Assembly (NCBI GenBank): GCA_020850915.1
Contig: JADZDV010000361.1
Coordinates: 1-13,775 of the forward strand
Length of the DNA stretch: 13,775 bases
Direction: 5' to 3'
From: Chloroflexota bacterium
Lineage (GTDB): Bacteria; Chloroflexota; UBA6077; JADZDV01
Positions within the stretch are counted from its first letter, which is position 1; each line of letters begins with the position of its first letter. The translations under genes and the position numbers were made by a program. Positions 2,165 through 4,208 of the stretch are shown here, in pieces. A model generated the notes under the pieces. That model searched no databases, was not told the DNA's origin, and saw nothing but the letters and a program-made list of their open reading frames with translations.

Positions 2165-2210
2165 CGACGGCCCCCAATCCCTCTGCTACGATAGCGCGGG
2201 GAGGCATGTG

Positions 2211-3266
2211 ATGAGCGCGACCATGCAGTTTGCGTCCGAACGTATCGAACTGCCTGACGCTCTGGCCGTGATCGAATACTACTTCGAGCAGGGCTGGACC
2301 GACGGGCTTCCGATCGTGCCGCCAACGGCGGAGGCGGTGGCGGCGTTCCTGACGACCACCAGCAGCCGCCCAGATGACATCGTCGGTTACGTGCCCAACC
2401 GGAACATCACGGTCACCGCTGAGAAGGTCGCCATCAACGCCGTCATGGCGGGCTGCAGGCCAGAGTACTTCCCGGTCGTCCTGACGGCGACCCAGGCGCT
2501 CACCGACGACCGTTTCAATCTCCACGGCTCGATGGCCAGCACGGCGGGCGCCGCGCCGCTGGTCATCGTGAACGGTCCCGTCGCGGCGCAGATCGGCGTC
2601 AACGCGGGCGACAACGTCTTCGGTCCTGGCTGGCGGGCCAACGCGACAATCGGCCGCACGCTGCGCCTGGTGCTGATGAATGTCTGTCGGGCCCAGCCGG
2701 GCGTGATGGACAAGGCGACGCTCGGCCACCCTGGTAAGTACACCTACTGTATCGGGGAGCTCGAGTCAGAGAGCGCCTGGGAGCCGCTCCACGTGGAGCG
2801 TGGCGCCGCCCGCGACCAGAGCGCGGTTACCGTCTTCGCGGCCGAGGCGCCGCACTACGTCAGGAACGACTCCGCCAACTCAGCCGAGGCGATCGCCAAC
2901 AGCATGATCGACGTGCTGAGCCGAGCCACGAACCGCGGCGGCTGCTGCGTGATCGTCGTATGCCCGGAGCACCTGCAGGTCTTCCTGCGGGACGGCTGGA
3001 GCAAGCGGGACCTGCGGACGTACCTCGCTGAGCGGACGGTCCGCTCGTTGGCCGACCTCAAGCGGTGCGGCTGGGTGCCCGGCGCCGTCAGGCCGGCGGA
3101 TGAGCAGAACATGCAGCGCTGGTACGGAAGCCCGGACCAGGTGCTGGTCGTCGTGGCGGGCGGCAAGACGTCTGGCTCGTCAGCCGTGGTGCCGCCGTGG
3201 GCCGGCGGGATGAGCTCGCAGCCCGTGACGAAGGGCGTGAGTGACTGCCTCGACAGCCGAGGCTGA
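2211..3266 (+). CDS. UGSC-associated protein of unknown function (TDGLP motif)
   Basis: 351-residue protein, apparently soluble: no signal peptide or membrane segment is visible. Near the N-terminus is the motif WTDGLPIVPPT (29-39). Other marked segments are MAGCRPEYFPVV (79-90, Cys82), a Gly/Asn-rich NAGDNVFGPG stretch (131-140), RTLRLVLMNV (149-158), and a strand with Cys245, Cys246 and Cys251. I recognise the style from uncharacterised bacterial proteins that I recall next to UGSC-family genes, but I know of no established activity. The start at ATG 2211 is preferred over GTG 2208 because GGGGAGG at 2198-2204 leaves a 6 nt spacer. The UGSC gene starts 22 nt after the stop with its own strong ribosome site, so the two are very likely co-transcribed and act together, perhaps as a complex or on one pathway. 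That link is inferred from context. An extended -10-like TGCTACGAT at 2184-2192 is too close to the start to be convincing. Confidence 0.8.
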   Translation: MSATMQFASERIELPDALAVIEYYFEQGWTDGLPIVPPTAEAVAAFLTTTSSRPDDIVGYVPNRNITVTAEKVAINAVMAGCRPEYFPVVLTATQALTDDRFNLHGSMASTAGAAPLVIVNGPVAAQIGVNAGDNVFGPGWRANATIGRTLRLVLMNVCRAQPGVMDKATLGHPGKYTYCIGELESESAWEPLHVERGAARDQSAVTVFAAEAPHYVRNDSANSAEAIANSMIDVLSRATNRGGCCVIVVCPEHLQVFLRDGWSKRDLRTYLAERTVRSLADLKRCGWVPGAVRPADEQNMQRWYGSPDQVLVVVAGGKTSGSSAVVPPWAGGMSSQPVTKGVSDCLDSRG

Positions 3267-3288
3267 GACTATCAGAGGAGGCACAAGC

Positions 3289-3855
3289 ATGTCGGATGCT
3301 CCAAGCCGCGGGATCGTCGTGCTCGATCCGACGGCGCGCCCAGTCCCAAAGCTCGGGTCGCGCGCCGAGCGGCTCGACACACTGGAGGGCAAGCGCATCG
3401 GCTTCATCGACAACAGCAAGCGGAACTCGGACCAGGTGCTGCGGCGCCTGGACACCATGCTGCACCAGCGCTACGGCACGGCCGACTCGATCACCATCCG
3501 GAAGAGCATGCCGAGCCGCATCGTCGACGCGAACGAGATTGAGCAGCTCCTGGGAAAGGTGGACGCCGTCATCCCCGGCGTCGGGGATTGAGGGAGCTGC
3601 TCATCGTGCAGTGTGCACGACGGAATCGTCTTCGAGAACCTGGGCGTCCCGGCCGCGCCGGTGATCACCCGCCCCTTCGTGAACATGGCCCGCGCCTCGG
3701 CAGACGCCAACGGCATGCCTGAGTACCCCTACGGCGTCGTTGAGCACCCGATCGCCCGCCTGACCGACGATGAGCTGGACGCGAAGGCGGATGAAGCGCT
3801 GCCGCTCGTGGTGGCGCTGTTGCTCGGACAGTCGGAAACACCTTCCACACCGTAG
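3289..3855 (+). CDS. UGSC-family selenoprotein, in-frame TGA read as selenocysteine (Sec101)
   Basis: 188-residue protein interpreted as one gene through an in-frame TGA at 3589-3591. The ATG at 3289 follows AGAGGAGG (3274-3281) with a 7 nt spacer. Residues 1-100 look like an alpha/beta sulfur-redox type domain: KRIGFIDNSKRNSDQVL, then DAVIPGVGD just before the TGA. Translation through the TGA gives U-G-S-C-S-S-C-S-V-H-D (101-111). This is the motif that names the UGSC family, in which I recall Cys replacing Sec in many homologues. The same frame then continues to a TAG at 3853 with coherent sequence (GIVFENLGVPAAPVITRPF and a VVEHPIARL segment). A SECIS-like hairpin sits 19 nt after the TGA. 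Sec101 and Cys104 would form a redox pair, and Cys107 is a third candidate. The reaction is unknown. The last residues and stop lie at or in a repeat. Alternative: a nonsense mutation of a Cys codon. Confidence 0.85.
3589..3620 (+). promoter_or_regulatory. Selenocysteine TGA codon with downstream bacterial SECIS-like hairpin
   Basis: The TGA is 3589-3591. From 3604 to 3620 the RNA can fold into a perfect 7 bp stem (UCGUGCA with UGCACGA) closed by a GUG loop at 3611-3613. The loop starts 19 nt after the UGA and its first base is G. As I recall the general bacterial SECIS rules (short apical loop with a G in the first two positions, about 16-37 nt after UGA), all are met. SelB with Sec-tRNA would bind here. 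No selA, selB, selC or selD gene lies in this window, so decoding capacity must be encoded elsewhere. A weaker competing hairpin, GACG-GAAT-CGTC at 3619-3630, overlaps the 3' arm. Confidence 0.72.
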
Positions 3856-3921
3856 GGTGGGCACTGCCCACCATTCCCAGTGGGATATTTCCGGGATGTG
3901 ATGGGCAGTGCCCACCCTACG
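3851..3921. repeat. Palindromic repeat copy 1 (71 nt)
   Basis: Perfect 20 bp inverted repeat, arms 3851-3870 and 3902-3921, separated by a 31 nt centre. Arm key is CGTAGGGTGGGC at the outer end. The left arm begins inside the UGSC gene: its TAG (3853-3855) is that gene's stop codon. A second copy with the same ends and near-identical size lies at 4036-4107, which makes this a dispersed repeat rather than a gene-specific terminator, although as RNA it could still act as a 3' stabilising or terminating hairpin. No transposase is seen. The sequence just right of it (GATCCTTCG) matches part of the outer arm of the next element. Confidence 0.85.
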
Positions 3922-3964
3922 ATCCTTCGGACTTCGAGACTTTACCTGTAATCATGCGCTCACA

Positions 3965-4178
3965 TTGTCATCCTGAGCGCTAGCGAAGGATCACGCAGTC
4001 GGAGATCGCCAGACGGAATCGGACAAGCCGTCCATCGTAGGGTGGGCTCTGCCCACCACGTCCGCCTTGAGATTGACCCGGGAATGGTGGGCGGAGCCCA
4101 CCCTACGGTTAGCGGGATGATTGGCTCCGGGGAAGTGGTGCGCAACTGCGTGATCCTTCGCTGCGCTCAGGATGACAA
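3965..4178. repeat. 214 nt compound palindrome with a concentric inner palindrome
   Basis: Outer arms 3965-3999 and 4145-4178 are inverted copies (35 and 34 nt) that differ by one inserted base; the key core is GTCATCCTGAGCGC...GAAGGATCACGCAG. Inner arms 4036-4058 and 4085-4107 are inverted copies with 22 of 23 matches and are a second copy of the repeat at 3851-3921. Both pairs are centred at about 4071.5, so they behave as one nested palindrome. The 36 and 37 nt spacers between inner and outer arms show no obvious complementarity. There is no coding potential. It is likely a non-autonomous, MITE- or REP/BIME-like intergenic element, possibly formed by one element inserting in the middle of another. 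Confidence 0.82.
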
Positions 4179-4208
4179 TGGGGCCAGTTCAGGATGACAA
4201 TGGGGCCA
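4167..4208 (+). repeat. Short tandem direct repeat, two 20 nt units, 22 nt period
   Basis: The segment 4167-4186 (TCAGGATGACAATGG...) is repeated exactly at 4189-4208, with two bases between the copies. The first copy overlaps the end of the outer arm of the preceding palindrome, so the repeat duplicates the edge of that element plus a few flanking bases. It could be slippage, or a partial duplication left by an insertion or excision event. Confidence 0.8.

Follow-up and report, generated by a model that had tools for sequence, protein, structure and literature searches.

On the forward strand of a contig from a Chloroflexota bacterium (JADZDV010000361.1, assembly GCA_020850915.1), a gene of the UGSC selenoprotein family spans positions 3289-3855 of the 13,775 nucleotide stretch analysed here, referred to as the window. 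From ATG 3289 the frame runs for 100 codons, meets TGA at 3589-3591, continues for 87 codons more and closes at TAG 3853-3855. The coding span (3289-3852, 188 codons) is a single gene, interrupted solely by this TGA, which is almost certainly read, judging from Cys or TGA at the same column in relatives, as selenocysteine (Sec), residue 101 and part of a UxxC motif. The span 3289-3855 proposed in a first-pass annotation stands as the extent of the gene, and its last three nucleotides are the stop codon. A Shine-Dalgarno-like sequence, AGAGGAGG, can be read directly at 3274-3281, before the start codon. On the same strand, an open reading frame at 2208-3266 encodes a protein of 351 amino acids from ATG 2211, GTG 2208 being an alternative start; it terminates 22 nt before the UGSC start, and its homologues adjoin or are fused to UGSC elsewhere. 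It is called the partner below. Further upstream on the + strand is the gene of a cyclic-nucleotide-binding-domain protein (1589-2164; PF00027, E 1.3e-24), regarded here only as a neighbour of the module. Around the UGSC/partner pair, neither a promoter nor a terminator of note was found. The region behind the UGSC gene (3849-4180) contains two near-identical inverted-repeat elements, with arms at 3851-3873/3899-3921 and 4036-4058/4085-4107, and two pairs of perfect 18-nt arms (3963-3980/4163-4180 and 3982-3999/4145-4162), and looks like dispersed-repeat or MITE-like sequence.

The 188-residue read-through product reads GDUGSCSSCSVHDG from residue 99 (GVGDUGSCSSCSVHDG with the preceding residues), Sec occupying the first position of the U/C-G-S-C motif. 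The profile PF24696 (UGSC) matches it at 171.9 bits (cut-off 25; E 1.8e-50) over positions 2-171 of 172, and the model NF041046 (UGSC family (seleno)protein) gives 141.1 bits where 125 is the cut-off. Both curated cut-offs are passed, as the family assignment made in the first-pass annotation had implied, and the gene is a fresh member of a known, uncharacterised selenoprotein family. Our literature search found no paper naming PF24696 or 'UGSC family'. UGSC ranks among the commonest selenoprotein families of the GOS environmental survey, with 255 Sec sequences, in the available text of PMC2398784, and a 2026 review lists it, in the portion accessible, without an assigned function (PMC13188914).

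In the public protein set the contig contributes P0201, a protein of 100 amino acids ending at the TGA, and P0222, of 80 amino acids, started at GTG 3613. These are exactly the broken calls that had been predicted from the sequence. The split itself, two same-frame pieces parted by the TGA alone, is confirmed by the frame and by the PF24696 and NF041046 matches that cross the site. The two calls are what one would expect also if the TGA were a true stop, due to pseudogene formation, sequencing error or regulatory truncation, and the halves separate or dead. This is very improbable, given what is found at the same column in other genomes, the covarying hairpin behind it and the gene fusions described below.

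A single-sequence protein search returned one relative and an alignment-based search with a UGSC profile 1906, of which the 120 listed were examined together with P0122, 121 proteins in all. P0122 is 39% identical to the window protein and has Cys over the TGA (GDCGSCS). Fifty-six of the 121 span both sides of the site and all have Cys there; two of the 58 full-length relatives in this set have another residue (W, L). N-terminal fragments ending at or just before the site, the window's P0201 included, account for 59 proteins, and four fit neither class. Genomic loci were collected with the family of the partner, and the best 79 of at least 578 confirmed stretches were retained. A UGSC domain is present in 70 of the 79, and 67 show one TGA at the Sec site. 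Cys is found at two loci, L008 (a Geodermatophilaceae MAG) and L078 (Natrialba asiatica, a haloarchaeon); at L079 the contig end cuts UGSC off before the site. Carriers recorded as named strains include Sheuella amnicola (L077) and Bacillus piscicola (L007). In a separate draw of 301 Chloroflexota genomes, 32 have UGSC, for a total of 69 matches; 66 have a single TGA as their only stop, two have by eye neither Sec nor Cys at the column, and the third of the remainder is a short N-terminal piece. Up to 11 matches occur in one genome: G187 and G172 host 11 and 8, many of them paralogous copies within a single selenoprotein family. Cys in 56 of 58 listed full-length relatives and TGA in 67 of 79 loci exclude that the column is neither Cys nor Sec, and agree with the expectation formulated for position 101 from the window. 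Dozens of other genomes have this TGA and this hairpin together, and sequencing error is therefore needless as an explanation.

A hairpin fitting bacterial SECIS elements, UCGUGCA[GUG]UGCACGA, lies at 3604-3620 on the + strand, with a loop at 3611-3613. According to the accessible text of PMC13188914, such elements have a stem of 4-16 bp, a loop of 3-9 nt with G in the first two loop positions, a distance of 16-37 nt from the UGA and a minimum free energy of at most -7.5. The window hairpin has 7 bp, the 3-nt loop GUG with G first, a distance of 19 nt between codon and loop and, folded alone, -8.2 kcal/mol; the SECIS-like element reported by the first-pass annotation at the expected distance is thus upheld. 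It is not the minimum-energy fold of the 42 nt behind the TGA, for which a different structure is computed. Folding of 3586-3631 against shuffles gave z -0.52, so that by itself the window hairpin is not strong evidence, and the 42 nt have no extra stability over other windows of the UGSC gene (z -0.08). In 70 of 73 genes compared, the 42 nt after the TGA are more stable than the gene's other windows on average. As the energy in the window is no better than in shuffles or in the rest of the gene, it was dropped as evidence and covariation was used instead.

For this, 67 distinct 45-mers of relatives, the window included, were compared with 500 shuffles. The seven stem pairs are formed in 92.8% of the cells (shuffled mean 83.1), 28 stem cells differ on both sides (6.3 on average in the shuffles), and covariation scores 0.234 (0.088 on average in the shuffles); none of the 500 shuffles reached any of these values. 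Two of the five pair measures stay within the shuffles, with 80 of 500 for pairs with both-side change and 263 of 500 for further pair types. If the partner strand is shifted by 1-3 columns, pairing falls to 12-63%; the loop is GUN in 66 of the 67 sequences. The covariation is strong, though coding constraint enters into it: the coded residues (SVH versus SVL) could cause part of it, and kinship among sequences can beat such shuffles in the absence of any structure. RNAalifold proposed only 4 of the 7 pairs on the 45-nt alignment; Rfam gave no match in the window at the gathering threshold and, even with E allowed up to 1, none near the hairpin. On these data, the role of the hairpin in directing the recoding of the UGA 19 nt upstream is shown comparatively, not biochemically. 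A covarying SECIS argues in turn against a true stop, and the selenoprotein interpretation first given to this gene is supported.

The Sec machinery was monitored in related genomes. As stand-ins for the host, the 12 nearest Chloroflexota genomes by Lon protein were taken from a 400-genome draw restricted to that phylum (best identity 73%); by this protein the window looks like Chloroflexota DNA. A tRNA-Sec scored over the cut-off in 10 of the 12, at 65-75 bits (missing in G267 and G171), SelB in 10 of 12 (missing in G267 and G079), both together in 9, and the partner family was found in 7. Among the genomes of 50 of the 79 loci, 46 have a tRNA-Sec over the cut-off. The four exceptions are L078, which has the Cys form, L067, whose stretch lacks UGSC, and two draft genomes of unstated completeness with TGA forms, L023 and L045; the L008 genome has the Cys form, yet a tRNA-Sec is present. 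At that cut-off 5 of 14 control genomes pass the tRNA-Sec search, and 3 of 14 at E 1e-9; the former being loose, E 1e-9 was used in the Chloroflexota draw, where 231 of 301 genomes are positive. UGSC carriers show no significant enrichment in tRNA-Sec (27 of 32, the 27 counted by eye, versus 204 of 269; Fisher p 0.38), and the co-occurrence in this phylum is accordingly compatible with Sec insertion but not discriminating.

Neither Pfam nor NCBIfam gives a match to the partner at E up to 10, and 21 diverse members of its family gave single weak matches only, the best at 0.028. The family is large, 7989 of 8000 scored candidates being related. A search of genome contigs by single protein yielded 81 pattern matches and no relative, and the alignment of the partner was used instead. 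UGSC/partner pairs were compared in the window and at 67 loci, 68 in all, L045, L062 and L079 having been dropped (limits 1300 nt and E 1e-30). The two genes are on one strand in 67 of the 68 pairs and within 250 nt in 59, and UGSC is downstream in 60 of the 67 loci. Their pairwise distances are strongly correlated (Mantel r 0.886; maximum 0.10 in 2000 permutations), to which shared descent also adds. UGSC is missing from the stretch at nine of the 79 partner loci (L027, L043, L053, L058, L060, L065, L067, L074, L076), six of which are from Poribacteria; at L027, L060 and L076 the sequence stops no more than 250 nt past the partner. Seen from the other side, nine of the ten UGSC loci first retrieved from the Chloroflexota draw show a partner in the few kilobases covered, L086 being the exception. 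Many partners terminate with a CxxC tail (CIDC and similar), found in 50 of the 120 relatives listed; the window's own lacks the full tail and has CLDS (3246-3263, residues 346-351). Cys82 is one of the partner's invariant residues. By this comparison of sequences, the upstream gene is a near-constant partner of UGSC, and the usefulness attributed early on to a co-transcribed partner as genomic context is justified by this companionship and by the fusions found in other genomes.

Twelve further regions were fetched, most of them picked for UGSC matches in long open frames. In 13 ORFs at these 12 loci, a UGSC domain and, after it, a partner domain share a single frame; the fusion at L100, at a contig edge, has only 75 partner positions. 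Eleven of the 13 have a TGA, which occupies the Sec site; the fused span contains no other. Since the partner domain lies behind the TGA, it can be made only by read-through, unless translation restarts, a further point against termination at this codon. A variant motif, GHUSTC, is found in nine of the 11. The ORFs at L092, L093, L095-L098 and L101-L103 form a fused subfamily, in which the Sec motif is GVGHUSTCAPAVA and the TGA is followed by a hairpin of another kind. In the fused proteins at L099 (5738-7543) and L100 (1-1173) the Sec column is by eye neither Sec nor Cys, and these are possibly non-catalytic paralogues. A fusion of UGSC to a conserved domain denominated Unknown_1 is described in the available part of PMC2398784, and there likewise the UGSC domain is joined to a conserved domain of unknown role; Unknown_1 is quite possibly the partner family described here.

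A relation of UGSC to glycine reductase is suggested by the likeness of the motif UGSCSSC to UGTCTRC of GrdB, the glycine reductase selenoprotein B. Alignment by hhalign of 45 UGSC proteins with 14 read-through GrdB sequences gave a probability of 95.8% (E 7.8e-9) over 93 columns, with Sec on Sec. The probability is still 86.3% when the eight motif columns are masked on both sides. The masked C-terminal part alone scored 46.0, and none of 150 column permutations exceeded 20.0; with the motif kept and the other columns permuted, the score was at most 37.8 versus 61.6 observed. Reversed GrdB and the part of GrdB before the Sec region, used as controls against UGSC, both gave 0.7%. PrdB alone versus UGSC reached 51%, and 3% when masked, GrdB versus PrdB being at 99.7%. 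Kinship of UGSC to Asp/Glu racemases was rejected (0.6%; GrdB and PrdB versus racemases 8% and 18%).

Curated models point in the same direction at low scores. TIGR01917 (glycine reductase selenoprotein B) matches 11 of the 45 UGSC proteins at 0.001 (best E 2.4e-6), leaving 34 that have no match at that threshold, and the mixed B family, GrdF, PrdB and GrdH models match 3, 3, 2 and 1 of the 45. Among the 30 UGSC proteins displayed singly, seven have a TIGR01917 match (one at 0.0013), all over the Sec region (profile 327-414 of 431) and at 18-27 bits against a cut-off of 602; overall, UGSC relatives score 15-27 bits with GrdB/PrdB models, far under the curated cut-offs (65-800 bits). The UGSC protein of the window has no match to these models at E up to 10. 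Matches to PF07355, as at L107, reach position 347 of 347 and contain no internal stop, the TGA being directly behind; the profile perhaps ends just before the Sec codon from having been built on truncated sequences. The relation does not extend to the partner, which, compared with GrdE and PrdA of the PF09338 family, reaches 0.5% and 0.1% respectively (control GrdE versus PrdA, 99.4%). No passage linking UGSC and glycine reductase was found in the available portions of PMC2398784, PMC9312934 and PMC13188914. Taken together, the profile comparisons show remote homology between the Sec domain of selenoprotein B and the Sec half of UGSC.

Sequence searches gave no solved structure related to UGSC, the partner or GrdB. 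The AlphaFold2 model of UGSC (pLDDT 91.5) has five alternations of strand and helix; Sec opens the helix that follows strand 3, and the predicted fold is Rossmann-like. PMC2398784, in contrast, presumes in its available text a Trx-like fold, assigning no function, and UGSC with its partner might be regarded as a disulphide reductase of the thioredoxin fold. The UxxC motif and the terminal CxxC of 50 of 120 listed partner relatives suit such an enzyme. It is nonetheless an unlikely one, as the modelled alternation is Rossmann-like and no thioredoxin is named among the 50 matches listed by each of Foldseek and VIA-align, which does not exclude one; moreover, the profile relation is to selenoprotein B, and the many copies per genome in some hosts, with a divergence matched to one partner, are unlike a general reductant.

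Neighbourhoods were surveyed at 62 of the 67 loci, five near-duplicates having been dropped; 83 co-oriented or intervening neighbours were counted, and the 48 close or intervening ones were scanned. Pfam matches among the 48 include TctC, the receptor of tripartite carboxylate transporters, in six cases, two of which flank one locus (L070), and SGL in four. No neighbour is constant among the 48, and they are too varied to name a substrate; the TctC receptors are a hint towards carboxylates, no more. The same survey bears on the possibility that the pair is a detoxification enzyme, in which the selenol nucleophile would act on a peroxide, an electrophile or a halogenated or nitro compound in a protective, not catabolic, role, by chemistry of the class assumed in the reading preferred below. 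Such a function would have precedents in the GrdB peroxidase activity named in the title of a paper in the reference list of PMC3091704, and in the GrdB-like operon held responsible for cleavage of the C-F bond of fluoroacetate in the accessible text of PMC10838667. It is judged improbable, because TctC, the commonest Pfam match (6 of 48), fits catabolism better, and no constant stress-gene neighbour was found among those scanned.

The reading that we prefer is that UGSC and the neighbouring protein make up one enzyme of two parts, a distant relative of glycine reductase, as appears from their sequences and arrangement. UGA 3589-3591 would be decoded as Sec under the direction of the hairpin 19 nt downstream, giving the 188-residue selenoprotein; this would work in complex with the product of the upstream gene, as adjacency, matched divergence and natural fusions suggest. 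UGSC would supply the catalytic selenol, as a stand-alone remote relative of the Sec domain of the selenoprotein B of glycine, betaine, sarcosine and proline reductases. By analogy, Sec101 may attack a small substrate that the partner binds or activates, at an electrophilic carbon or heteroatom. The invariant Cys104 would then resolve the selenium adduct as a selenenyl sulphide, to be reduced by thioredoxin or, where present, by the C-terminal CxxC tail of the partner. To this account as a whole, from Sec read-through to a glycine-reductase-like attack by the selenol of a UGSC/partner complex, we assign a probability of about 0.55. The presence of several UGSC copies in one genome suggests that these may act on different substrates. 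The environmental bacteria with several copies are not known as amino-acid fermenters. More tentatively, and with odds that we put somewhat below even, UGSC and its partner could represent a widespread and unrecognised class of two-component selenium reductases, made of the glycine reductase Sec domain in stand-alone form and a wholly different substrate-activating subunit, and multiplied within the genomes of certain environmental bacteria.

What this analysis adds to the first-pass annotation is the glycine reductase relation and a near-constant, unnamed partner with natural fusions. Partner, fusions and remote link turn a family lacking a function into a concrete, testable enzyme. The data matter also for annotation: gene calling splits UGSC genes, and 59 of the 121 members examined in the public set are fragments ending at the Sec codon.

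In D-proline reductase, as described in the available part of PMC3091704, the pyruvoyl subunit PrdA holds the substrate while the Sec of PrdB attacks the alpha carbon; a selenoether is formed, cleaved by a Cys of PrdB, and the enzyme is then re-reduced. The fluoroacetate case (PMC10838667, accessible text) suggests that the selenoprotein B scaffold may be chemically versatile. GrdB (TIGR01917, PF07355), PrdB (TIGR04483) and UGSC share the motifs U-G-(S/T)-C, E..G(V/I/L)P and HP(I/L) over the 93 aligned columns, and each appears to work beside a second subunit. They differ in size, UGSC having 188 amino acids versus about 440 for most of the GrdB frames read. They differ also in the second subunit, which in UGSC is from an unrelated family and not of the GrdE/PrdA type of glycine and proline reductases; as the partner is not of the pyruvoyl family, substrate activation must differ from that of these reductases, or else the analogy is a loose one.
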